Source: a virus. Taken from it: a stretch of 41,353 bases of DNA. A program made the position numbers and the translations under genes. The number at the start of each line of letters is the position of its first letter. The first letter of the stretch is position 1. The stretch covers positions 1 through 41,353 of the IMG/VR virus record IMGVR_UViG_3300042560_002994, one strand, 5' to 3'. Of the stretch, positions 1 through 41,353 are shown one piece after another. Under the pieces are notes generated by a model. It worked only from the letters and a program-made list of their open reading frames with translations, had not been told where the DNA came from and made no database searches.

Positions 1-119
1 CCTTTTTTTTCAGCTGTTTCAGCTATTTTAGCTGCTCCTTTGCCTCTAATATTAGCAAATTCTTCAAAAGTTTCTTTAATTTTTTTAGCTTCGTTTAATA
101 TATCTGTAAGATTGATCAT
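1..119 (-). CDS. Partial CDS, N-terminus of a putative head-packaged protein
   Basis: Only the first 39 residues are in the window; the gene continues past position 1. It starts with ATG at 119, and the A of that codon lies within the TGA stop of the gene upstream (ATGA overlap), so the two are translationally coupled. The N-terminus reads MINLTDILNEA. The tripeptide L-N-E followed by A at residues 8-11 resembles the cleavage point of T4 capsid-targeting sequences. A lysine- and glutamate-rich helix follows. The family is not recognisable from this fragment; packaging into the head is inferred from the N-terminus and from its neighbours. Confidence 0.6.
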   Translation of the reverse strand, partial: MINLTDILNEAKKIKETFEEFANIRGKGAAKIAETAEKK

Positions 120-5860: not shown

Positions 5861-8800
5861 AAACCTAATTCTTTAAGTTGACTAATTGTATCAGTGGCAG
5901 ATGTATATAATATACCAATTCCACCTTGACTTCTCCATTCTTCTATATTAGAAGGTTTATCATCTATTAAAATATGGTTAGGAGCTGCGTATTTTTGTTT
6001 AAGTTTAGCTGGGGATAGAATAAGTTTAGTACCTGGGAGATATTTTTTAATCCATAATCTTTTACCTAATCTTGAGGATTCATCTCTGGAGGGGGCTGAT
6101 AGGAGTGTAGGATTATATTTTTCTATATAACTCCAATATTCATTCCCATCAAGCATCCAAGGCATTCCAACCCAAAATCCTACTCCTTTACTCCCTATTA
6201 AATCCCAAAAAGCCTCTTTTCCATTTTTAGTTTCATACTCTTCAGGAAGCATTCCTGCTATTTTTTTAAATTGAGTATCAAAATCAGTTATAACTCCATC
6301 CATATCAGAATAAATCTTATAATCAGGAGCTGTTTCTTCTTTTAAGTTAGTTTTTTTTGAATCTTCCCACTTTCTTAAATTCATACTACCTAATTCATGG
6401 GCTTCTTTTTCTATATCAGCTAATTCCGCGTCCTCATAAACATTAGCTGTAGTCATAGGTTTAAGCCTGTTTTCAATATTTTGCATATGATGGACTAACT
6501 CATGAGAATAACTTCTTAAAATATCTTTAGGATGTCTGTTAAGGGTATATAAAGTTATACACTTAGTTTCTGGGTTGTAGTAAGCGGTTTTGCCTAAGGG
6601 GTCTTTAGCATTTTCTTCATCATTACTAATAAATTCAATTTTAGGGAATGGATGAAGTTTCATACCATTAGTGACTAAAAAAGATGTAAAGTCTAAAATA
6701 AGAGGTTTTAATTCTTCTTTAAGTGGTTTATATCCTGATCCATAAGGAGCAGCTTTACCCTCTTCTTCTTCTAAACCTACTTTAGCTAAGACATCATAGT
6801 AATTAGGATTCTCTTCAAGATGATCCAACGCTATTTTCATAGCTACTGTTGGGTTTGAAGTATGTTCTTTTTCTACTTTTATACCCTTTTTTAATTGAGC
6901 TTTTAATTCTTCAGCTGAGATATTGTGTTTTTTTATAATAGTTTCAATTCTGGGGCATAAGTCTTTAACACCTTCATTTAATTTAATTTGGGGTAAATTT
7001 AAACGAATCCACCTATCCCATACCTTTCTAACACTGGCTTCTTCTTCACCTGTTAATTCATCACTTCTCTCATCAAAAAACTCATCAATAGCTGCTTGTA
7101 AAGGTATTTTTTTGGTTTTAGCTCTTTTATATAAACCCTGAACAAATGCGGGAACTTCAGCGTCAAGAACTAAATACTGAGCTAAGGGCATTCCGTCTTG
7201 ATATTTTATTTCAACTCCTTTTTCAAAATTAAATTGAGATATATGTTCTAACTCATGTCTTAATGTTTCTTTTAACTCAGCTATTAAGTTATTATATTCT
7301 TTTGGAAAGGATTCCGGGTTGTATTGTATTTTTATTTCAGCTGCGCTATAGTCAGCTTCTCCATCAACTATAAAAGGAATAATGCCTAATTTTTTAGAAG
7401 GTCTAAATTTAAATGTTAAATCATATTCAATATTCCCTATACTACCTCCAGTTTCTTCTTCATATTTAACCCCAAAATTATTTTTAAGTTGGTTGACTAT
7501 GTAACGAGATTGAGTAGTTACTTCAGCATCATATCTACCTTCTTGAAGAGAAAGGACAGGATTTAAAGTTTTAAAAATGCTTTTACGCATTATAGTTTTA
7601 GCTGCAGCTTTATTCTTTGTTTTTTTAATAAATGGAATATTAATATTAGTTTGTCTATCTTGAGCTACAATTTCTCCATCACTATTTAACAAATCAATAA
7701 ATTGATCTTTTTTAACACCTAACTTATCAAAAAAATCTTCTAATTCTTCAACTTCAATCTCTGGATTGTTTCTGGGGTCATTTAGTCTATCAATAAAGTG
7801 TTGTCCTGATAAGTCTATATCTAAGGGAGCTAATTTAGAATCAGCGAATTGGTCTAAAAATTCAACATCATCTAAACCTATATTAGGCTCAGGTTTAAAA
7901 TAAATTTTTTCTTCAATTGGTTCTAACTCTGAATAGGTTCCATCTTTTAATTTTCCATTAAAGATTAAAGAGCCAGCCCCAAAATCATCATATTCAGTAC
8001 CTGTTAAATCAATACCATCATAATTTTTTAACAAATGATTTGTTAATAAATCACCATCATTTCTTTTAAAGACATCTTTTAGATAATCTTTAAATATATT
8101 ATATGTTTCTTTTTTATTTAAGTTTAGATAGCTTGAAAACCCATCAACCGCGTCATCAATATTGTTTTTTACGTCAGAATCCTGTAGATCTTCAGGTTTA
8201 AGTCCATGTAAATATGCTGTTGTGGCTTTTATATTCTCGTAAAATCCTGTGGGATCATCCGGTCTAAATAAATTATATTTAGATAAATCTACTTGTGATA
8301 TAGCATCATATCCTAATTGATCTTGTAGTCTTTTAACATCCTCTAAACTACCCATAAAATAATATCCTGTACCTAAAAGACCAACTTTGGATTTTACAAT
8401 ACCAATACCTTTATCTTTTAAACGTTCAGCAGGTTGAGATGGATTAAATAAACCAGCTCTATACCCCATTTTAGATTGAGCTTCTTGAATTTCAGGAATA
8501 AGGAAACGAGTTAAAATGTTCCAAATTTCTTCTCCAGAATTTTTAGGCATAAGAGATAAAAAAGTATCTTTATCCTTACGTGAAAAAGCTCTTCTAACTT
8601 TAGTTCCACTAACTTCAGCTGAGTTGTCTTGGATTATTTCTACTTGAATTCCTAAAGGAGCGAATGATTTTTTTAATTTTTCAGCACTATCTAAATCATC
8701 ATTGTCTCTAACACCAGCTATAAAAGCAATTTTTAAATCAGGATTTTCTTTAGCTAAATCTAAAGCATATTTTACAGGAGAAGGAGCTTGGAATATTTTA

Positions 8801-33999: not shown

Positions 34000-34055
34000 C
34001 CAAGATCAAGCCAACTTACACATACCTCACCTCAAAATATCCGTATATACAAACC

Positions 34056-34853
34056 TTATCTAAAATCTAATGGATCTTCAGTAGGAAATTCATAATCACT
34101 ATCATACTTGCCTTCCCCTTTTCCTCCTTTATAAGGCCCAATTTTATAAAAATAAGCCATATCATCAGGCAATATGAAATAATCAGGCTTAAAAGTATTT
34201 CCTACATATAAAACTTCATCTTCAGTGAAGGAAGATATAGTATTCATAAACTCAGGGTTAAATATAAAATTTGGATTATCCGAGGAAATCCCAATAATAA
34301 TAGGGACTCGATCAGAGGTATCTAGATATTGTCTTGAAATGAAATTATAAGCGATTCTCGGGTCTGTAGTGAATGAATGAATGCCCCTTTGACTACGAGG
34401 AGCAACTTCTAACCCGGGATTGGGAACCGCTATAAATTCATATTTTGATAGGTCAATATAATCATCCCAATCAAGTTTTTCAAATGTGGAGAGGGGGATA
34501 GTTGCTCCCCTGAGAATTAGTTGTTTACCACGAGGGGTAGCAATCCAATCTTTTGAGTCGGAAGCTAAGGGGTCTAAGATTCTGGGAAATTTGGGTTTTA
34601 AGGATAGGAGCTTTGGGGCGTTACTAACTAAAATAGAAGGGATATCTATCCCTTGTCCTATTGTTGCTTTTGTAAAAGACCTTAACCCCGATAAGAATTC
34701 ATCTTCATCTTCTGTATTTTTTTCATGTTCATCCCCAATTAAATAAGCAAATTTAGCTCTTTTTGAATTGTTAGTTTTTATAGCGGATGAATATGGATCG
34801 GCAAATAGTCTTTTACCGTACTCTAATTCTCTGAGGATATTAACTAATTTCAC
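34056..34853 (-). CDS. R-S-E class ADP-ribosyltransferase, Alt-like, putatively packaged
   Basis: A 265-residue protein starting at GTG 34853. It shows the three ART elements in order: R115 in L-I-L-R-G, the S-F-T strand (G-I-H-S-F-T-T-D, S160), and E-x-E at 211-213 in F-T-E-D-E-V-L-Y-V. The closing V-G-N-T-F-K-P-D-Y-F also fits the fold. R-S-E enzymes such as T4 Alt and ModA move ADP-ribose from NAD to arginines of host proteins, including RNA polymerase. The N-terminus MKLVNILREL has L-R-E (7-9), like the capsid-targeting leaders of the left-hand cluster, so injection with the DNA is plausible. A late motif lies five bases before the GTG. Confidence 0.65.
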   Translation of the reverse strand: MKLVNILRELEYGKRLFADPYSSAIKTNNSKRAKFAYLIGDEHEKNTEDEDEFLSGLRSFTKATIGQGIDIPSILVSNAPKLLSLKPKFPRILDPLASDSKDWIATPRGKQLILRGATIPLSTFEKLDWDDYIDLSKYEFIAVPNPGLEVAPRSQRGIHSFTTDPRIAYNFISRQYLDTSDRVPIIIGISSDNPNFIFNPEFMNTISSFTEDEVLYVGNTFKPDYFILPDDMAYFYKIGPYKGGKGEGKYDSDYEFPTEDPLDFR

Positions 34854-34858
34854 GGTTA

Positions 34859-34866
34859 ATAAATAT
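34859..34866 (-). promoter_or_regulatory. Late-type promoter motif ATATTTAT
   Basis: Minus-strand ATATTTAT, five bases (TAACC), then GTG 34853. The motif touches the stop codon of the acidic peptide ORF at 34866-34937. Confidence 0.55.
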
Positions 34867-34937
34867 TATAAGGCATCATGAGGATACCATTCATCATCAT
34901 CCCATTCTGAGATGATTTCGTTTTCTTCTTCGTCCAT
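34866..34937 (-). CDS. Possible 23-residue acidic peptide
   Basis: A small ORF starting at ATG 34937. The peptide is very acidic (M-D-E-E-E-N-E-I-I-S-E-W-D-D-D-E-W) and ends just before the ADP-ribosyltransferase gene. A late-type motif lies further upstream at 35004-35011. Acidic peptides of this kind can mimic DNA, but the ORF is too short for certainty. Confidence 0.3.
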   Translation of the reverse strand: MDEEENEIISEWDDDEWYPHDAL

Positions 34938-35003
34938 AGATCATTAAATGTTTGAAGGTTAATATGTAGTTTTTAGAGAGGAAACCTGGGTTAACTCATA
35001 ATA

Positions 35004-35011
35004 ATAAATAT
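35004..35011 (-). promoter_or_regulatory. Orphan late-type motif with a two-codon ORF
   Basis: Minus-strand ATATTTAT, four bases (TATT), then ATG-AGT-TAA. Motif and spacing match the genuine late gene starts, but the frame closes after two codons. Confidence 0.45.
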
Positions 35012-35264
35012 AGGTATATGTTTTTTCGATAGCAAAAAGTTTTAAAGATCTTTTTTTACGGTTTTGCGGCTTTTGGAAAAGTTTGGCAAAATGGAAAAAT
35101 GGGGTAAGTTATGGGATATAGGTATATACTTTGTCGATGGTAAAGATTTTATCTCCCCATTAAACACACCACACCCTGCTAACATACCCTGTCCGCATCG
35201 ATGGATAACAACGCGCGTGGGAGATACGGTGCTATATAGCGGTACGTACGTACGACACAGATAC

Positions 35265-35288
35265 GACAGACTCCTTACGGAACCTGTC
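35265..35288 (-). terminator. Hairpin downstream of the AT-hook gene
   Basis: GACAG pairs with CTGTC and TCC with GGA around a TTAC loop, separated by a 2x2 internal loop. It starts 27 bases after the stop of the 35315-35611 gene. There is no clear U-tract, so the terminator call is tentative. Confidence 0.4.
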
Positions 35289-35314
35289 GCACCACATTCT
35301 TATCGTTTCGTAAA

Positions 35315-35611
35315 TTACGCCTCGACAGATTCGACAACCTTTTTCGGGCGGCCGGGTTTTCCACCTCCAGCTGCTTTTTTAGCGTTCAATTCGGCGATTC
35401 GCATTTGACGCTTCGATTCCGGGTTCACAGTACCTGCTGGTCGACCGCGCTTAATCACTTCACCACTTGCGATACGATTCGCAATTTCGGTCAAACGCTT
35501 CTGACGAGCCGATTCTGGATTGATACCGCTGCCAACCGGCCGTCCTGCCTTACGCTTTTCAACATTCAATTCAACGTTCATCACGACTTGGTTTTTGGTG
35601 TTCTTAGCCAT
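35315..35611 (-). CDS. AT-hook protein, three hooks
   Basis: A 98-residue basic protein with three AT-hook cores: K-A-G-R-P-V-G-S-G (GRP 23-25), K-R-G-R-P-A-G-T (56-58) and K-P-G-R-P-K-K (87-89). The linkers repeat a helix pattern (N-P-E-S-x-R-Q-x-R-x-x-E-I-A/L-N). AT-hooks bind the minor groove of AT-rich DNA, so it could coat the phage's own genome or silence or displace host nucleoid proteins. It has an early promoter. A paralogue with the same hook-helix repeat lies at 39527-39862. Confidence 0.8.
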   Translation of the reverse strand: MAKNTKNQVVMNVELNVEKRKAGRPVGSGINPESARQKRLTEIANRIASGEVIKRGRPAGTVNPESKRQMRIAELNAKKAAGGGKPGRPKKVVESVEA

Positions 35612-35657
35612 TTGACTTTGTGTTTTTTTTGTGTGTGTTATTTTTAAATCTTATACC

Positions 35658-35690
35658 TAAATATAACGATCAATCTTGCGGTTCTAAAAT
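35658..35690 (-). promoter_or_regulatory. Early promoter (AT-hook gene at 35611)
   Basis: ATTTTA-N19-TATATTTA on the coding strand, followed by the common leader G-GTATAAGATTTAAAA. Confidence 0.8.
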
Positions 35691-35713
35691 CCTAGGTGTG
35701 CGTTGTTTGCGTT

Positions 35714-35899
35714 TTACTTCTTTATGGTCAATGTTTCAATATCAATATAGTTGAAATCGCTATCCCCACTATTCCATTCCCTACCATCATACCACTTCAT
35801 TTCTCCGTTTACAATAACATACCCATCTGATGCTTTAATTAAACTTGTACCTTCAAACCATTCATCCAAGTTTTCTATTTTCGCTTTAAATTTTATCAT
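35714..35899 (-). CDS. Small early protein of unknown function
   Basis: A 61-residue protein (MIKFKAKIENLDEWFEGTSL start) with a compact beta pattern and several Trp (E-W-F-E-G, M-K-W-Y-D-G, E-W-N-S-G), of a kind seen in YopX-like small phage proteins, where W-Y-D-G type turns are common. That similarity is weak. It is one of the early gene cassettes and carries the shared promoter/leader upstream. Confidence 0.6.
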   Translation of the reverse strand: MIKFKAKIENLDEWFEGTSLIKASDGYVIVNGEMKWYDGREWNSGDSDFNYIDIETLTIKK

Positions 35900-35919
35900 A
35901 TCTTTTAAATCTTATGAAC

Positions 35920-35952
35920 TAAATATAACAATAAATATTGCGGTTCTAAAAT
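35920..35952 (-). promoter_or_regulatory. Early promoter (35899 gene)
   Basis: ATTTTA-N19-TATATTTA on the coding strand. The 25 bases upstream of the hexamer are repeated from the promoter at 35658-35690 (CCTAGGTGTGCGTTGTTTGC on the plus strand). Confidence 0.8.
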
Positions 35953-35979
35953 CCTAGGTGTGCGTTGTTTGCGTTTGAA

Positions 35980-36102
35980 TTACTTGTCTTCGCTCTTAGT
36001 GAGCGTGTAGATGATTGGGTATGCAACCAAGAAAACACTGTACGCGATTAAGCTATATGTTCCAACAGTGAAAATAGCGTTCATAACAGTTTCAAAATTC
36101 AT
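35980..36102 (-). CDS. Small early membrane protein
   Basis: A 40-residue ORF starting at ATG 36102. A single hydrophobic helix (about residues 9-33) with a short acidic/basic tail (T-K-S-E-D-K) predicts an inner-membrane peptide. It is one of three single-helix peptides in the early array (with 37013-37117 and 40891-41013). Function unknown. Confidence 0.6.
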   Translation of the reverse strand: MNFETVMNAIFTVGTYSLIAYSVFLVAYPIIYTLTKSEDK

Positions 36103-36144
36103 GGTCGGTTGGTTTTGGTGTGTGTTACTTTTAAATCTTATACC

Positions 36145-36177
36145 TAAATATAACGATCAATCTTACAATTCTAAAAT
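36145..36177 (-). promoter_or_regulatory. Early promoter (36102 gene)
   Basis: ATTTTA-N19-TATATTTA on the coding strand with the common leader. Confidence 0.8.
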
Positions 36178-36199
36178 CCTAAGTGTGTATCGTTTCGAT

Positions 36200-36400
36200 T
36201 TAATACTTAGGATTGGTATGGGACACTCCTAAAACAATCATAGCAGCTTTATCAAAATCAACTTCCGATACCATCAACTTGATACCATACCTTGAACCCC
36301 ATTCTTTGAACTTGATTTCGGCGGCTGTCAATTTCTTTCTTACAACGTCATTATACTTACGACGGTGTGGGGTGAGTTGGAGATGAGCTACTTGTTTCAT
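36200..36400 (-). CDS. Small basic early protein
   Basis: A 66-residue protein with a basic first half (L-T-P-H-R-R-K-Y-N-D-V-V-R-K-K) and a hydrophobic second half (A-A-M-I-V-L-G-V). No known family. It lies within the early cassette array with its own promoter. DNA or RNA binding is possible from charge alone. Confidence 0.6.
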   Translation of the reverse strand: MKQVAHLQLTPHRRKYNDVVRKKLTAAEIKFKEWGSRYGIKLMVSEVDFDKAAMIVLGVSHTNPKY

Positions 36401-36426
36401 TTTACCTACTTTTAAATCTTATACCG

Positions 36427-36459
36427 TAAATATACGATCTGATTGCGTTGGGTCAAAAC
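36427..36459 (-). promoter_or_regulatory. Early promoter (36400 gene)
   Basis: GTTTTG-N19-TATATTTA on the coding strand. Confidence 0.8.
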
Positions 36460-36469
36460 CCTGGGTGCG

Positions 36470-36706
36470 TTAGTAACTGGTATTCCAAGGTTTATTAACC
36501 AACATTTCGTTCAATCGCTCTAAACTCTTCCTACCCCCATGTCTGAGTTCGGAGTACCTATCCAACAAATCATCATCATTTGAGTTGGTTAGTGTTTCAT
36601 TAGATAACTCTACAACGTATCCTGCTCCTATAGCCCCGAAGGACATACCTGTGTCTCTACCTTCTCGAATCTTAACTATAGACACATTTACATTGTTGAT
36701 GGTCAT
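36470..36706 (-). CDS. Small early protein of unknown function
   Basis: A 78-residue protein. The first half contains strands (V-N-V-S-I-V-K-I-R) and a Gly/Ala turn (F-G-A-I-G-A-G-Y-V-V-E-L); the second half is an acidic and then basic helix. No family is recognised. It has its own early promoter and the same A-rich leader as its neighbours. Confidence 0.6.
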   Translation of the reverse strand: MTINNVNVSIVKIREGRDTGMSFGAIGAGYVVELSNETLTNSNDDDLLDRYSELRHGGRKSLERLNEMLVNKPWNTSY

Positions 36707-36752
36707 TTGACTTTGTGTTTGGTTGATGTATATTACTTTTAAAACTTATACC

Positions 36753-36785
36753 TAAATATAACGATCAGTTTCGGTTAAACCAAAC
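36753..36785 (-). promoter_or_regulatory. Early promoter (36706 gene)
   Basis: GTTTGG-N19-TATATTTA on the coding strand. Confidence 0.8.
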
Positions 36786-36797
36786 CCCTAACCCCAC

Positions 36798-36947
36798 TCA
36801 CTTATGTCTCAACCTCTTAAATACATCAAGCAACTCTGGGTTATTCATTATCCTATCCCTCAATGCCTTTGACTTTTGATCCAAGAAATCGTTATATTCT
36901 TTCTCACTCTTAAATCCATTCTTTTTCCAATTTTCCATTTTAATCAT
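36798..36947 (-). CDS. Small basic early protein
   Basis: A 49-residue ORF starting at ATG 36947; a second ATG three codons later is possible. It is basic and helical (W-K-K-N-G-F-K-S-E-K-E-Y-N-D-F, K-A-L-R-D-R-I) with no recognised family. An early promoter stands 26 bases upstream. Confidence 0.55.
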   Translation of the reverse strand: MIKMENWKKNGFKSEKEYNDFLDQKSKALRDRIMNNPELLDVFKRLRHK

Positions 36948-36972
36948 TATTTTTATTATTAAATCTTATACA

Positions 36973-37005
36973 TAAATATAACGATCAATTCAAACTAAAC
37001 CAACC
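36973..37005 (-). promoter_or_regulatory. Early promoter (36947 gene)
   Basis: GGTTGG-N19-TATATTTA on the coding strand. Confidence 0.75.
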
Positions 37006-37012
37006 CTTTAAG

Positions 37013-37117
37013 TTATCGTGTCCCCCTAATCACACTCCACACTCCCCAACCTATCACTACCAAAATCATCATTTCCAACACCCCAATCACTCCAAAAATC
37101 AAATCGATATTATTCAT
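37013..37117 (-). CDS. Small early membrane protein
   Basis: A 34-residue ORF starting at ATG 37117: one hydrophobic helix with Val, Ile, Met and Trp and a basic end (I-R-G-T-R). It is the first gene of the cytosine-poor stretch: only three C on the coding strand in 105 bases. Single-helix peptides of early phage regions can act in envelope protection, but nothing specific can be said. Confidence 0.5.
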   Translation of the reverse strand: MNNIDLIFGVIGVLEMMILVVIGWGVWSVIRGTR

Positions 37118-37137
37118 AACATTTAAATCTTATAAAC

Positions 37138-37170
37138 TAAATATAACAAATAAATCCAATCAAACCAAAC
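37138..37170 (-). promoter_or_regulatory. Early promoter (37117 gene)
   Basis: GTTTGG-N19-TATATTTA on the coding strand. Confidence 0.8.
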
Positions 37171-37177
37171 CCCCAAG

Positions 37178-37378
37178 TTAAAACACCCCACCATCAATTA
37201 TAACCCTCTTCCTAACCTTATATTCTTCTAACCCCTCATAATAAACATTCCCTACTTTTACACTATCTATTTTATTAAAATAAACATAGTCAGATGGATC
37301 TTCTCCTCTAATAACTACTTTTAAATTCTTATTCTCAACTTTCTCCAACACCTTAATCAATTCTTTAACAGTCATCAT
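37178..37378 (-). CDS. Small early protein, cytosine-poor gene
   Basis: A 66-residue protein (MMTVKELIKVLEKVENKNLK start) resembling small phage proteins with a T-V-K-E-L-I-x-x-L-E start and a strand-rich end (V-I-R-G-E-D-P-S-D-Y). The coding strand has only five C in 201 bases, so codon choice is strongly shifted. It has its own early promoter. Function unknown. Confidence 0.6.
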   Translation of the reverse strand: MMTVKELIKVLEKVENKNLKVVIRGEDPSDYVYFNKIDSVKVGNVYYEGLEEYKVRKRVIIDGGVF

Positions 37379-37413
37379 TCTTTTAATTATTAACTATTTT
37401 TAAAACTTATACC

Positions 37414-37446
37414 TAAATATAACAAATAATTTTTAATTAACAAAAC
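37414..37446 (-). promoter_or_regulatory. Early promoter (37378 gene)
   Basis: GTTTTG-N19-TATATTTA on the coding strand. The hexamer overlaps the last codons of the upstream gene ending at 37437. Confidence 0.8.
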
Positions 37447-37760
37447 TCCTTATACTTAAAACTTACTTTATAAACTTCTCCATTTTCAAACTTCCCATTT
37501 TCTACACTTCTCTTTACATTCCAAACATCCCCCTCAAACATTTCAATTTCAAAATTCTCCCATAAACTATTATTACTAATCTCCTCCATCATTTCTTCTA
37601 TTTTAATTCCAATACTCCACATATCAAACCAATCTAACCCTACTTTATATTCTACTAAATCTCCTTCTTTATAATCCCTATAATCCCCATCCAAACTACT
37701 AAATATATTTTCTAAAATATAATCAACAACCTTCAATTCTCCTTCTTTAAACTTCTTCAT
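37437..37760 (-). CDS. Cytosine-free early gene, 107-residue product
   Basis: A 107-residue acidic protein (MKKFKEGELKVVDYILENIF start). No coding-strand base is C, so the product has no Pro, Thr, Ala, His or Gln at all; it uses only residues with C-free codons (Lys, Glu, Asp, Asn, Phe, Tyr, Trp, Val, Gly and so on). Four Trp and several Tyr/Phe suggest a folded core, and the start and promoter are ordinary, so the gene looks real rather than filler. A C-terminal K-Y-K-E-F-C ends it. Function unknown. Confidence 0.65.
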   Translation of the reverse strand: MKKFKEGELKVVDYILENIFSSLDGDYRDYKEGDLVEYKVGLDWFDMWSIGIKIEEMMEEISNNSLWENFEIEMFEGDVWNVKRSVENGKFENGEVYKVSFKYKEFC

Positions 37761-37792
37761 TTTATTTATTAATTATTTTAATTAATTATTAT

Positions 37793-37825
37793 TAAATATA
37801 ATAATTTTTATTTAATTATTAAAAC
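37793..37825 (-). promoter_or_regulatory. Early promoter (37760 gene), C-free version
   Basis: GTTTTA-N19-TATATTTA on the coding strand. The two boxes and the 19-base spacing are kept while spacer and leader have lost every C. Confidence 0.75.
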
Positions 37826-37839
37826 TCTAAATAAATTAA

Positions 37840-38058
37840 TTAATATTTAAATTCCAAAATTTCTCTATAATTATATAAACTTCTAAATTTAATAATAATA
37901 TTATTTAAAATAATTTCATTATTCTCATTAAATTCCAAATTACTAAATAATTCTTCAAATTTATATAAATCATATTTCTCAAAATCTTTATTATTAATTT
38001 CAATTTTCTTAATATTATTATTAATAATAAAATTTACAAAATTCTCTAAATTTTCCAT
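37840..38058 (-). CDS. Cytosine-free early gene, Asn/Ile-rich 72-residue product
   Basis: A 72-residue protein made of Asn, Ile, Glu, Leu, Lys, Phe and Tyr only, with a few others (F-I-I-N-N-N-I-K-K-I-E-I-N-N). It has no Pro, Thr, Ala, His or Gln because the coding strand contains no C and little G. The pattern F-x-N-F-I-I-N-N-N-I-K-K-I-E-I suggests a small alpha/beta fold. It has its own early promoter. Whether it is translated is less certain than for the 37437 gene. Confidence 0.5.
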   Translation of the reverse strand: MENLENFVNFIINNNIKKIEINNKDFEKYDLYKFEELFSNLEFNENNEIILNNIIIKFRSLYNYREILEFKY

Positions 38059-38105
38059 TTTTCTTAATTTTTAATTATTATTAATTATTTTTAAATATTA
38101 TTTAT

Positions 38106-38138
38106 TAAATATAATAATTTTTATTTAATTATTAAAAT
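38106..38138 (-). promoter_or_regulatory. Early promoter (38058 gene), C-free version
   Basis: ATTTTA-N19-TATATTTA on the coding strand. Confidence 0.75.
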
Positions 38139-38192
38139 TTTAAATATTTTTATTTTATTTATTATTATTAATTATTTTTAATTAATTATTAT

Positions 38193-38225
38193 TAAATATA
38201 ATAAATAAATATTAATTAATAAAAT
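38193..38225 (-). promoter_or_regulatory. Early promoter of an empty cassette
   Basis: ATTTTA-N19-TATATTTA on the coding strand, but only 54 pure A/T bases with no start codon separate it from the next promoter hexamer. Confidence 0.65.
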
Positions 38226-38235
38226 TTTAAATTAA

Positions 38236-38463
38236 TTAATTAATTTCCTCTCCTTTAATATAAACACCAATCTTGGCTTCTTTATCATAAAAAGTGACCA
38301 AATTATTTTCAATATATTGTGTCAATTTAAGGCCCATTCCTTCCCAAGCTATTGTCTCAATTAAATTATTTAGACCTTCATAAGCTTTATCAAAGGTCGA
38401 AAAATATCTATTTTCAATTATTGCCAAACCATCCTCCTCAACCCACAATTTAAATATTTTCAT
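38236..38463 (-). CDS. Small early protein of unknown function
   Basis: A 75-residue protein (MKIFKLWVEEDGLAIIENRY start), acidic with an alpha/beta alternation. Unlike its downstream neighbours its gene contains normal amounts of C except in the last 13 codons, where the C-free run begins. That sharp boundary lies inside this ORF. An early-type promoter precedes it. No family recognised. Confidence 0.6.
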   Translation of the reverse strand: MKIFKLWVEEDGLAIIENRYFSTFDKAYEGLNNLIETIAWEGMGLKLTQYIENNLVTFYDKEAKIGVYIKGEEIN

Positions 38464-38509
38464 TTTTCTTTTAATTAATTATTATTAATTATTTTTAATT
38501 AATTATTGC

Positions 38510-38542
38510 TAAATATAACAATTTTTATCTAATAAAACAAGT
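38510..38542 (-). promoter_or_regulatory. Early-type promoter, weak upstream box (38463 gene)
   Basis: TATATTTA is intact on the coding strand. The hexamer at 19-base spacing is ACTTGT; a GTTTTA box exists at 15-base spacing instead. Confidence 0.55.
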
Positions 38543-38668
38543 ATCTAAATTAAATTATCCACGTAGCGCCCTTACGTTAATGTGTGATTAATCAATCAGT
38601 TCAATAGTGAATTCGCCTGAAAGCATTTATTGAATAATAGTGAAAATGCCTGGAGAGTAGGTTAATCA

Positions 38669-38693
38669 ATTGCTATTCATTATATTTAGCAAT
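38669..38693. other. Stem-loop inside the repeat region
   Basis: ATTGCTA (38669-38675) pairs with TAGCAAT (38687-38693) around an 11-base A/T-rich loop. It lies between two copies of the 19-bp repeat. Confidence 0.45.
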
Positions 38694-38862
38694 ACTGAAA
38701 TCAACTGTAATATAAAATAAATCAATAATGAAAGTGCCTGGGAAATAGGCTATGCGCTAATTAATCATTAGCTTTACCCTTAGCATCACGAGCATGTTTC
38801 ATTTTATGATTCAATAATGAAAATGCCTCGAAAACAAGACAGTGATAGTAAGGAAAATTCCC

Positions 38863-38877
38863 GATCACTTGGTGATC
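38863..38877. other. Inverted repeat GATCAC-TTG-GTGATC
   Basis: A perfect 6-bp inverted repeat with a three-base centre. It directly abuts the fifth 19-bp repeat and could be an operator-like site. Confidence 0.45.
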
Positions 38878-39070
38878 AAAAACGAAAACGCCCGAGACAG
38901 AAGCATAGTCAATAGTGAAAATGCCCGTAAAATTGAATAAATTGCTATTAATCTGTTTGGCTTTAGCTAACTTAAACCGATGCACTATCGACATTCTTAT
39001 ACGCACTTTGGCGGGTCTGGCTGTGGTGTTTGGCTGTAAGCTTATTAATTAATAACGTTTTATTACGGTG

Positions 39071-39078
39071 ATAAATAT
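39071..39078 (-). promoter_or_regulatory. Orphan late-type motif in gene-free DNA
   Basis: Minus-strand ATATTTAT followed by CACC, the same spacer as at the 5269 gene, but the next codon is GTA rather than a start. A transcript from here would run leftward through the 19-bp repeats. Confidence 0.35.
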
Positions 39079-39349
39079 ATGATCTCTTATCAAAATCGCC
39101 AAGCTTCCCCGTAGGGAGATTGGGGGGGCCCCCCATTCCCCCAGGTATTTTTTTTGAAAAGTATATATTTTTTTTAAAGAGGAAGTTTGGAGGTGTGGGT
39201 GAATGCAAGCACCGGGACATAACTTAACATAACTCCATACACCCCTTGTTTGTCACCTACCCCTCCCCCATCCCATTCCTTGTTTCACCCTTACCTCTTT
39301 ATTTGTCACCCACTTACCATTCCTCTAAACATCAATTTAATATATTGGA

Positions 39350-39369
39350 GGGAACCATTCCTGGTTCCC
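39350..39369 (-). terminator. Hairpin downstream of the second AT-hook gene
   Basis: GGGAACCA pairs with TGGTTCCC around a TTCC loop, about 160 bases after the stop at 39527. It carries no strong U-tract. Confidence 0.45.
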
Positions 39370-39526
39370 CCCCTCCCACACTATGTTTCTAATATGTTTT
39401 TATGGATCATTTTTCCTGGACGCCACCGATTTCCATTCCCGGATACCTTATGTGGTTGTAAACGATCAAACCCCTGGGAGTATTATTATCTATCTTCCTT
39501 CTCCCTCACCATCCATCCTTTATTTC

Positions 39527-39862
39527 TTATCCTACTACTACTTCAATGGTTTCGGTTTGGGCGGTTTTGGTTCCACTACCCTTCGGACGCCCTACTTTCA
39601 AGGTTCCATTGGCTCGTTTTGCTTCCAATTCCGCAATTCGCAATTGACGCTTTGAATTTGGATTGATACCACTTCCAACCGGACGTCCTCGCTTCAACTC
39701 TCCATTGGCTCGCTTCTCATTCAGTTCAGCCAAACGGCGCTGACGCTTTGATTCCGGATTCACTCCACTCCCTACCGGACGTCCACGCTTCACTACTCCA
39801 AACTCAACATTTCCTACTTCTTGAACCAGCTTCTCAGATGCTTTGAATTGAACGTTTTCCAT
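39527..39862 (-). CDS. AT-hook protein, three hooks (paralogue of the 35315 gene)
   Basis: A 111-residue protein with AT-hook cores K-R-G-R-P-V-G-S-G (GRP 27-29), K-R-G-R-P-V-G-S-G (59-61) and K-V-G-R-P-K-G-S-G (91-93). Between the hooks lies a helix of the form N-P-E-S-K-R-Q-R-R-L-A-E-L. The 32-residue hook-plus-helix unit is repeated nearly exactly, and the same unit occurs in the 35315-35611 product, so the two are duplicates. It should bind the minor groove of AT-rich DNA. It has tandem early promoters, the outer one otherwise without a gene. Confidence 0.8.
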   Translation of the reverse strand: MENVQFKASEKLVQEVGNVEFGVVKRGRPVGSGVNPESKRQRRLAELNEKRANGELKRGRPVGSGINPNSKRQLRIAELEAKRANGTLKVGRPKGSGTKTAQTETIEVVVG

Positions 39863-39915
39863 CTTTTTTTGTTTTTGGTGTTTTTTATTAACTTTTATTT
39901 CTTAATCTTATTACC

Positions 39916-39948
39916 TAAATATAACAAACCTTTTTTAGTTTCTAAAAT
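39916..39948 (-). promoter_or_regulatory. Early promoter (39862 AT-hook gene)
   Basis: ATTTTA-N19-TATATTTA on the coding strand. Confidence 0.8.
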
Positions 39949-40004
39949 CCTAAACTAACTTGTTTTTTTAATTATTATTATTATTTCTTTTTAAATCTTA
40001 TACC

Positions 40005-40037
40005 TAAATATAACAAACTATTTTTAGGTAATAAAAT
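40005..40037 (-). promoter_or_regulatory. Early promoter of an empty cassette upstream of the AT-hook gene
   Basis: ATTTTA-N19-TATATTTA on the coding strand, followed by the usual A-rich leader and then directly by the next promoter; no ATG lies between. Confidence 0.7.
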
Positions 40038-40051
40038 CCTAAGTGAACTTA

Positions 40052-40213
40052 TTAAACAAAGACCCTTTTAACAAAAAAATCATTACTACCAAGTTCCTCA
40101 GCACACTCGTTAGCTTCTTTATAAGAAGTGTATAACTTAGGATAGACATTTGGAGTATTATCAAATAAATTGACCCAAGTCACTACATACAAACCATCGC
40201 TCTTAGTTACCAT
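40052..40213 (-). CDS. Small early protein of unknown function
   Basis: A 53-residue ORF starting at ATG 40213. It reads as a compact beta-hairpin plus helix (G-L-Y-V-V-T-W-V-N-L-F, then Y-T-S-Y-K-E-A-N-E-C-A-E-E-L), a pattern seen in small phage SPOR-like or Arc-like domains but too short to assign. Its own early promoter lies 28 bases upstream, and the promoter of the empty cassette begins 15 bases after its stop. Confidence 0.6.
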   Translation of the reverse strand: MVTKSDGLYVVTWVNLFDNTPNVYPKLYTSYKEANECAEELGSNDFFVKRVFV

Positions 40214-40240
40214 TATCTTTTATTTTTAAATCTTATGAAC

Positions 40241-40273
40241 TAAATATAACAATCCTTTTCATAATAATAAAAC
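40241..40273 (-). promoter_or_regulatory. Early promoter (40213 gene)
   Basis: GTTTTA-N19-TATATTTA on the coding strand. Confidence 0.8.
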
Positions 40274-40319
40274 TCTATGTGGCCTTGTTTCTTAAGAGTG
40301 AACTATAACCAATAAATGA

Positions 40320-40338
40320 CCAATAATGAAAATGCCGG
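40320..40338 (+). repeat. Seventh copy of the 19-bp repeat
   Basis: CCAATAATGAAAATGCCGG, two differences from the consensus of the 38.6-38.9 kb cluster. It lies four bases past the stop of the 40343-40507 gene. Confidence 0.75.
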
Positions 40339-40342
40339 TGTT

Positions 40343-40507
40343 TTATGATTCCAAAATGTCCCGTTCCACTACCCTCCAATGTCCTCCTGAGGTACGTTGT
40401 TTCCTTATTTCCATCCACTTCTCAGCCTCCTCAATGCTACTGAATCCCCATTTGGTGATTGGCCTCTCCATTTTCTTGTTGAACCAACTTACACCTATCT
40501 CCTTCAT
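40343..40507 (-). CDS. Small basic Trp-rich early protein
   Basis: A 54-residue ORF starting at ATG 40507. It has four Trp and a basic middle (W-M-E-I-R-K-Q-R-T-S-G-G-H-W-R-V-V). The pattern F-S-S-I-E-E-A-E-K-W fits a small strand-helix-strand domain. It overlaps the upstream gene by four bases (ATGA), so it is translated from the same message. The plus-strand ORF over it is a shadow. Confidence 0.6.
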   Translation of the reverse strand: MKEIGVSWFNKKMERPITKWGFSSIEEAEKWMEIRKQRTSGGHWRVVERDILES

Positions 40508-40665
40508 ACCGTTTCTACTTCAGCCAATTCTTCTTTAATCACCTTCATAATACCAATGGCAAAACCTAAAGCATAACTTGGACTAATTTCTTTAGACATT
40601 TTGTCCTCATTCATCAAAAAGTTATCAATAGCTTTGATAAGGGTTTGTTTTTGATACTCGTTCAT
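40504..40665 (-). CDS. Small early protein of unknown function
   Basis: A 53-residue helical protein starting at ATG 40665 (MNEYQKQTLIKAIDNFLMNE start). A hydrophobic turn Y-A-L-G-F-A-I-G-I-M lies in the second half. It has the shared early promoter 26 bases upstream and leads by a four-base overlap into the Trp-rich gene. Confidence 0.6.
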   Translation of the reverse strand: MNEYQKQTLIKAIDNFLMNEDKMSKEISPSYALGFAIGIMKVIKEELAEVETV

Positions 40666-40690
40666 CTTTTTTATTTTTAAATCTTATTCC

Positions 40691-40723
40691 TAAATATACG
40701 ATCTTTTTACCACGTAACAAAAC
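40691..40723 (-). promoter_or_regulatory. Early promoter (40665 gene)
   Basis: GTTTTG-N19-TATATTTA on the coding strand. It lies just past the hairpin that ends the previous unit. Confidence 0.8.
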
Positions 40724-40732
40724 TCTAAGGGA

Positions 40733-40760
40733 AGGAGTGGATGCTTTCACATCCACTCCT
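40733..40760 (-). terminator. Strong hairpin terminator after the 40787 gene
   Basis: AGGAGTGGATG pairs perfectly with CATCCACTCCT (11 bp, six-base loop); an outer CTAAG/CTTAG pair extends the stem. It starts 27 bases after the stop codon at 40787 and is followed on the minus strand by a T-rich stretch leading into the next promoter. Confidence 0.75.
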
Positions 40761-40786
40761 CTTAGGTATAAGTTAAAAGATAAAAA

Positions 40787-40894
40787 TTAAGATCGGTCAA
40801 CAATTGAATTGATTTCGTCAAGTTTATTTTCAATCCGTTTCAATCCATCCAATATTTCTTTAAGGAACTCAGCCCTTGATATTTCTTCATTCAT
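40787..40894 (-). CDS. Small early helical peptide
   Basis: A 35-residue ORF starting at ATG 40894, a charged amphipathic helix (F-L-K-E-I-L-D-G-L-K-R-I-E-N-K-L-D-E-I) likely to form a coiled coil. It overlaps the upstream membrane-peptide gene by four bases and is followed by a strong terminator hairpin. Function unknown. Confidence 0.55.
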   Translation of the reverse strand: MNEEISRAEFLKEILDGLKRIENKLDEINSIVDRS

Positions 40895-41013
40895 CGTTTC
40901 ACTAAATCATTAAGTAATTCTAAAGCCAATTTAAATACACCACAAGCGACAACAATCGCTAAACTAATCACTGCTAACGCTGCTACTCCTGCCATAACTT
41001 GTTGGACTACCAT
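40891..41013 (-). CDS. Small early membrane protein
   Basis: A 40-residue ORF starting at ATG 41013. A hydrophobic helix covers residues about 5-27 (V-M-A-G-V-A-A-L-A-V-I-S-L-A-I-V-V-A-C-G-V), then an amphipathic tail. It sits between the 41022 gene and the coiled-coil peptide and overlaps the latter (ATGA), so the two may form a membrane complex. Confidence 0.55.
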   Translation of the reverse strand: MVVQQVMAGVAALAVISLAIVVACGVFKLALELLNDLVKR

Positions 41014-41021
41014 TTTATTTC

Positions 41022-41246
41022 TTAGTTAAGCTGTTTCATTACACCCATAATTTCTTCCATGAGTTGATCCTCATCCAATTGAAACATCCAATTATCTGGG
41101 TGGATAATGGAAGCAATTCGTCTCTCTTCATCACTCATTAATGCTGCACCTGTAATTGAATTAACAACATTAAAGGCGTTTTTTTCTCCCATCAATGAAA
41201 TGGCAAAGAAACGATCATAACAAACCATACGATTCAAGAGTCCCAT
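41022..41246 (-). CDS. Small early protein of unknown function
   Basis: A 74-residue protein (MGLLNRMVCYDRFFAISLMG start) with an acidic C-terminal half (D-E-D-Q-L-M-E-E-I-M). No family is recognised. It starts 17 bases after the stop of the partial gene at the right edge and has no promoter of its own in view, so it belongs to a unit that begins outside the window. Confidence 0.55.
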   Translation of the reverse strand: MGLLNRMVCYDRFFAISLMGEKNAFNVVNSITGAALMSDEERRIASIIHPDNWMFQLDEDQLMEEIMGVMKQLN

Positions 41247-41263
41247 GTTAATGTTTTTTTAAG

Positions 41264-41353
41264 TTAGGCTACAACTACAACACGACCGGGGTAACAAACC
41301 AACTTACCCTTAGTTGGGTGAACAATAAAATCATCCTTATCAAATTCTTGGAT
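41264..41353 (-). CDS. Partial CDS at the right edge
   Basis: The last 29 codons of a gene whose start lies beyond 41353. The visible end (D-D-F-I-V-H-P-T-K-G-K-L-V-C-Y-P-G-R-V-V-V-V-A) is beta-rich. No family can be named. Confidence 0.5.
   Translation of the reverse strand: MQEFDKDDFIVHPTKGKLVCYPGRVVVVA

Follow-up and report, generated by a model that had tools for sequence, protein, structure and literature searches.

Can a working stretch of viral genes do without one of the four bases, and if so, what keeps that base away? The question is raised by a 41,353-nt stretch of DNA (the window), a 41-kb IMG/VR virus fragment with a contractile-tail baseplate module, in which the plus strand has no G, and the minus (coding) strand consequently no C, over 903 nt. 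A recount reproduced exactly the G-free span from 37372 to 38274 described in the original prediction: it consists of 349 A, 137 C and 417 T on the plus strand, is bounded by G at 37371 and 38275, and is preceded on its left by an interval (37013-37371) with nine G, again as described. The two complete ORFs of 107 and 72 codons placed inside the run were confirmed to lack Pro, Thr, Ala, His and Gln. The second-longest G-free run of the plus strand within the window measures 111 nt, and at the flanking G content (14%) a 903-nt run has a chance of about 1e-60 of occurring at a given place. Dinucleotide shuffles (n = 100) gave no C-free run of at least 191 nt from an ATG, compared with 10 in the real sequence. 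The view that the depletion is one-sided, non-random and compatible with working genes was upheld.

The run lies in a minus-strand cluster of small orphan genes, many of them behind a promoter-like repeat, and its right edge falls inside the 75-aa ORF (Table 1). The promoter-like unit within the run reads TGTTATATTTAGG, and several copies outside it have CGTTATATTTAGG at that place. Whole cassettes are gained or lost at these repeats: the 400-nt cassette with the 72-aa gene is missing from the nearest relatives, including IMGVR 3300009170_000021, and both its ends lie within a repeated intergenic unit. Between 38058 and 38236, a tandem pair of promoter-like units encloses no gene and may be what is left of a lost cassette. 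Repeats around AATAATGAAAATGCC recur immediately upstream of the C-free genes at spacings of 88, 89 and 98 nt (38601-38940), with a further copy at 40322-40351; the Rfam search over 34000-41353 returned no match, for these repeats or otherwise.

Table 1. Features in and around the C-free run (window coordinates).
Feature	Position	Strand	Basis
Run of 903 nt without C on the coding strand	37372..38274	-	Base count and 100 shuffles
C-poor domain, 1383 nt with 11 C, C climbing gradually downstream	36892..38274	-	Maximal-scoring segment
34-aa ORF, 3 C, tail of the C-poor domain	37013..37117	-	
66-aa ORF, MTVKELI family (phrog_5861, E 1e-4), 2.5% C	37178..37378	-	
Promoter-like intergenic unit within the C-free run	37395..37427	-	Repeat family D6
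107-aa ORF, 0 C, 28% G; relatives 93% identical, likewise 0 C	37437..37760	-	
400-nt cassette: 72-aa gene plus promoter-like sequence	37805..38204	-	Alignment
72-aa ORF, 0 C, missing from relatives, without significant Pfam/PHROG family	37840..38058	-	
A/T-only stretch, 183 nt, with two copies of the intergenic promoter-like unit	38064..38246		
75-aa ORF, C in its 5' part, final 39 nt C-free, 95% identical in relatives	38236..38463	-	
Upstream stretch: promoter-like unit, repeats spaced by 88-98 nt, hairpin; normal C	38464..39526		

Two contigs from other samples, 3300009170_000021 and 3300027683_000017, encode the 107-aa and 75-aa proteins at 93-95% identity and contain a C-free run of 490 nt whose right border coincides with that of the window run. 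When the window was aligned with a relative, the summed A/G and C/T differences stood at 17 to 1 for the run together with its graded side; the corresponding sums for the flanks were 64 to 52. Relatives had been proposed as the place to test the feature, with ordinary composition there as the outcome that would speak against it; those examined, close and distant, have no C or very little of it at the corresponding place. A sequencing or assembly artefact, to which the hard-to-sequence A/T-only part and the ending of several contigs near the cluster might point, is hardly credible, as the same feature occurs in independent samples and in immuto isolate genomes, with intact ORFs. Escape from restriction sites, an earlier suggestion, is no more believable: a few base changes would suffice, it would act on both strands, and it leaves a loss of one base on one strand unexplained while G climbs to 25-31% in many C-free genes.

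The baseplate wedge of the window matches that of Flavobacterium phage immuto with 49% identity over 99% of the protein, and the host is therefore probably a Bacteroidota bacterium. Other C-free contigs also belong to an Immutovirus-like group, with baseplate wedge identities of 50-61% and a similarly placed cluster, and the carriers of the C-free block probably infect Flavobacterium-type bacteria. The promoter-like repeat in immuto is TATATTTAGG with TTG upstream, an arrangement resembling, in our reading of the sequence, the Bacteroidota promoter consensus. In the complete immuto genome, the C minimum (3% in 500 nt) lies in the corresponding small-gene cluster, as do the four longest coding-strand C-free runs, mainly at gp143. 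Immuto thus shares with the window the myovirus group (baseplate wedge about 50% identical), a similar small-gene cluster with promoter-like units, and one C-poor unit (gp143), but its C-free stretch is shorter (158 nt; a 431-nt domain with 5 C) and the gene content of its cluster is different. When C-free genes were compared with isolate phages by tblastn, immuto itself was the single match. Upstream of its small-gene cluster, at L126:16270-16920, ACCCGTT-type units recur, possibly an origin or packaging site.

The C-free genes form a discrete class. Among 1373 ORFs of assembled contigs, called by a simple rule, 19 contain exactly zero C, a count that is not a prevalence since the set includes contigs picked for a C-free gene; few ORFs fall at 1-5% C, the main mode lies at 12-16%, and none lacks G. 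Contigs found by homology alone (G009, G018 and immuto) show the same gap in C content. With the amino acids unchanged, normal codon usage would put an avoidable C in 271 of the 1541 codons of 16 C-free genes; none of them has one. Five homologous pairs of C-free or nearly C-free genes, namely G033/G034 twice and G032/G009 (differing at 20-29% of sites) together with window/G018 and G027/G029 (3%), present 274 nucleotide differences, 2 of which involve C; for the homologues differing at 20-29% of sites the figure is 2 of 260, and for a C-normal control pair it is 17 of 44. Furthermore, a 48-aa gene is C-free in both L153 and L155 despite different flanks. The persistence of the feature across divergent pairs and in these two settings indicates a force that is long-lasting and at least partly borne by the gene. 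A single ancestry of all C-free proteins was considered and rejected, most all-against-all scores being composition noise: related-looking proteins are limited to G032/G009 and G033/G034 and, weakly, G034/G035 and G025/immuto, and nearly all C-free genes are orphans.

To gauge how widespread the feature is, two anchored patterns were used, each with 14 fixed bases around ATG followed by about 150 positions without C, and thus covering one kind of start context. They matched 6 and 8 stretches in IMG/VR, and neither matched anywhere in 257 Gb of genome sequence from bacteria and archaea. C-free stretches reached 924 nt in G025, 977 nt in G026 and 885 nt in G035; a further match has 955 nt with just 3 C, and G034 contains a 4.1-kb domain at 2.5% C that includes genes at exactly zero. 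Most matches belong to the broad myovirus group of the window and immuto, with G027-G029 unplaced. No C-free run of 142 nt was found in G002, G003, G004, G005, G006 or Microcystis phage Mel-JY01; the lack of a run in such large members makes the feature recurrent, not universal. Where found, C-free runs are limited to one cluster per genome or contig. Just 3' of the C-free unit in L167, on the same strand, lies a 414-nt G-poor stretch with 8 G (6667-7080), perhaps a C-poor gene on the opposite strand.

The confinement to one cluster, the 183-nt A/T-only stretch with non-coding repeats just upstream of the run in the window, and a GC skew of 1, like that of R-loop-prone DNA, could suit a replication origin or DNA-unwinding element (an A/T-only stretch or R-loop origin) whose single-strandedness shapes composition, as had been suggested. 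This explanation is highly improbable. The A/T-only stretch shrinks to about 80 nt in relatives, T is not reduced although it is the weakest base of an RNA:DNA hybrid, and no fixed place relative to an origin-like non-coding region was found across relatives, the C-free units lying 3' of non-coding regions in some lineages and among cassettes in others. The units follow gene and terminator limits, often ending at terminators. The immuto result had first suggested a smooth gradient running out from an origin, an idea that was dropped because L135 (G009) alternates C-free and C-normal cassettes: a 442-nt C-free cassette is followed by a second, nearly C-free one, both close at a GGGGGCAAATGCCCCC hairpin, and the adjoining cassettes have normal C.

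Many unit borders are sharp, and the typical 3' end is a terminator hairpin, as judged from sequence. C is absent for 10 nt past the stop codon and returns most strongly at +31..45 (frequency 0.12); the terminator-like hairpins in which it returns, and which need it, follow units in G009, G025, G027, G028, G031, G032 and G034, and no clear terminator was found at the C-free unit of the window. Units with zero C adjoin units of 10-20% C in G029, G032 and G035, where the change is sharp, whereas C recovers gradually over neighbouring genes in the window and G025. The original description of the run as graded on the left therefore holds for this genome but fails as a general rule, other phages being sharp at both borders. 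The graded recovery looks regional, not gene-specific, and speaks against a cassette reading; homologues of the MTVKELI family likewise range from 2.5 to 12.7% C according to neighbourhood, so the surroundings matter too. On the upstream side, the leader has little or no C, and the 5' ends of the units reach into promoter spacers that are C-poor. Two promoter copies of G035 are C-free and depart from the neighbouring C-normal copy where that copy has C. Depletion in the spacers, upstream of the presumed start, argues against a cause acting on RNA only, which would not require it barring read-through. Some transcripts retain C, clustered at the 5' end of the 84-aa gene in G025, or as one or two residues in the G027 and G028 leaders.

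Taken with the gene class, this layout leads us to favour, tentatively, the reading that the run is a natural 'C-less cassette', that is, one or a few small phage genes held C-free by long-term selection that acts on the transcript or on how it is made. C is missing from the coding strand over whole ORFs, and a cost attached to each C in the transcript fits because all ORF and leader positions are affected, synonymous or not, on one strand only; because G is spared and C is allowed where transcription should stop; and because the effect is strongest near the cluster start in the window and G025. The earlier idea of a C-free transcript has proved the best-supported of the causes first proposed, but not in its original form, since a need to avoid G-C pairs would not by itself leave G in place. 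Selection for unstructured mRNA, in which leaders and genes stay open for translation as no G-C pair can form, agrees with C-free units having no G-C hairpin and with hairpins returning at unit ends. It is nonetheless quite improbable: removing G would serve equally well, yet G is retained in every ORF of the set and abundant in many C-free genes, and absolute zero C exceeds what structure avoidance needs.

What replaces C separates this selective reading from its main rival, transcription-coupled cytosine deamination. Under that rival, C on the displaced non-template strand would turn to T hundreds of times above the normal rate, through an R-loop or ssDNA deaminase in highly transcribed genes, with selection removing only stops; conversion of normal genes in this manner would give stops at 5% of codons. 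T does replace C at codon position 3 (C 0.111 to 0.003, T 0.34 to 0.48), a change to be expected from mutation and from synonymous choice alike. In favour of the rival, too, the loss is one-sided, on the non-template strand only and following the direction of transcription, C-to-T changes separate the promoter-like repeats within the run from copies elsewhere, and the graded downstream recovery in the window and G025 is of the expected kind. However, lost C becomes mainly G at position 1 and mainly A at position 2, not T. The residues raised in C-free genes are Asp, Glu, Tyr, Trp and Cys, and no shift along C-to-T paths (Ala to Val, Thr to Ile, Pro to Leu/Phe) was found: Val, Ile and Phe stand at 0.085, 0.077 and 0.054 versus 0.120, 0.126 and 0.097 predicted under conversion, with Leu also below its prediction. 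The pattern resembles a process that avoids C while preserving protein function more than it does simple hypermutation, although it may also reflect long-term mutation bias combined with strong protein selection. Avoidable C was removed more than unavoidable C, which strong mutation bias predicts as well and which counts against a selection-only reading.

Deamination of the exposed non-template strand, among the causes first listed, remains the main rival, a possible though not a probable cause. Besides protein composition, it is opposed by the lone C-free cassettes of G029, G032 and G035 amid C-normal cassettes with similar promoters, by the 48-aa gene of L153 and L155, and by clusters of avoidable C persisting between C-free stretches, as in the 84-aa gene of G025. 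The PF00383 deaminase was absent from 10 contigs including the complete immuto genome, in a search that covered PF00383 alone among deaminase families and found its control in 12 of 14 genomes; an enzyme of the host might take its place. Strand-asymmetric deamination of mitochondrial DNA and transcription-associated mutation are similar in that exposure of one strand brings a graded, one-sided C-to-T bias, but these shift the skew moderately, whereas the C-free units reach zero, are discrete and often sharp, and encode proteins that are not C-to-T-like.

The cost could instead lie in the template. If part of the G were replaced by 7-deazaguanine through the DpdA pathway, a G-free template would spare RNA polymerase the modified bases. 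Several large members of the phage group encode DpdA and QueC, namely immuto, G001, G003, G005 and the 68-kb C-free contig G030; DpdA with the preQ0 pathway is present in immuto and G030, and was not found in the window, itself a fragment. In measured phages, about 30% of G at most is replaced, and the polymerases needed are stated not to be inhibited (PMC6884629). These two points, and G001 and G003, which have DpdA and QueC and no C-free run of 142-150 nt, weaken the explanation; it would moreover affect all early genes, and we consider it improbable.

Under the favoured reading of selection against C in the transcript, the genes would be transcribed from host-type promoter-like units in a small-gene, probably early, cluster, and every C in the transcript, copied from a G in the template, would lower expression when the genes are needed. 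The most likely candidate agent is a CTP-directed host defence, a condition making CTP incorporation unreliable through chain-terminating ddhCTP, as made by prokaryotic viperins, or through CTP shortage; an RNase cutting at single-stranded C is an alternative. The C-free genes, probably counter-defence or takeover factors, could then be fully expressed under conditions in which messages with C fail. The more specific idea that phages write chosen counter-defence genes in three-letter RNA (A, G and U, encoding 15 amino acids) as immunity evasion under CTP poisoning or exhaustion is unlikely on present evidence.

A protective omission of this sort has a precedent in ACA-free messages, which resist the toxin MazF because the mRNA has no site for it to cut; there too a gene is protected by dropping a sequence from its RNA, but a short motif is dropped and not, as in the phage genes, one whole base. 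In laboratory C-less or G-less cassettes, one nucleotide is missing from the hundreds of bases behind a promoter, up to the point where it first occurs, and T7 RNA polymerase in vitro crosses a C-less cassette without CTP and stops at the first C (PMC3388079); these cassettes are artificial and non-coding, whereas those of the window are real genes with conserved proteins. The ddhCTP, ddhGTP and ddhUTP produced by prokaryotic viperins terminate phage transcripts (PMC12926258). Harm from ddhCTP should rise with the number of C per transcript and would select such a pattern, but the link between viperins and these phages is inferred, and a viperin prevalence under 1% (PMC12926258) weighs against viperin as the agent.

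If selection causes the loss of C, the feature points to an undiscovered host mechanism acting on C in RNA or on G in the template, and the C-free genes become candidate counter-measures; if mutation causes it, the phage would harbour an extraordinarily strong, local and strand-specific mutator. The question is directly testable, as the isolate immuto, with Flavobacterium sp. LMO8, has such a unit. We know of no natural gene class without one of the four bases, and none was found in the open-access literature.

Pfam and PHROGs yielded no function for the C-free proteins of the window or for ten other C-free proteins. The AlphaFold model of the 107-aa protein is poor (pLDDT 49), and a C-free 81-aa protein of L168 gave a good fold (pLDDT 86) with no match in the PDB; its sole structural match is a phage protein (TM 0.77, 38% identity, E 2.7e-3). 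Elsewhere in the window, a minus-strand gene contains a mirror image of the C-free run, a 134-nt run without C on the plus strand, and therefore without G on the coding strand, at 2761-2894; the gene has Thr/Ser/Pro-rich repeats, and a low-complexity protein linker probably accounts for the run. Two paralogous genes built of GRPVxxxNPxSKRQxR repeats lie at 39527-39862 and 35315-35611, and genes of this type border small-gene clusters, often C-free units too, in many related phages.
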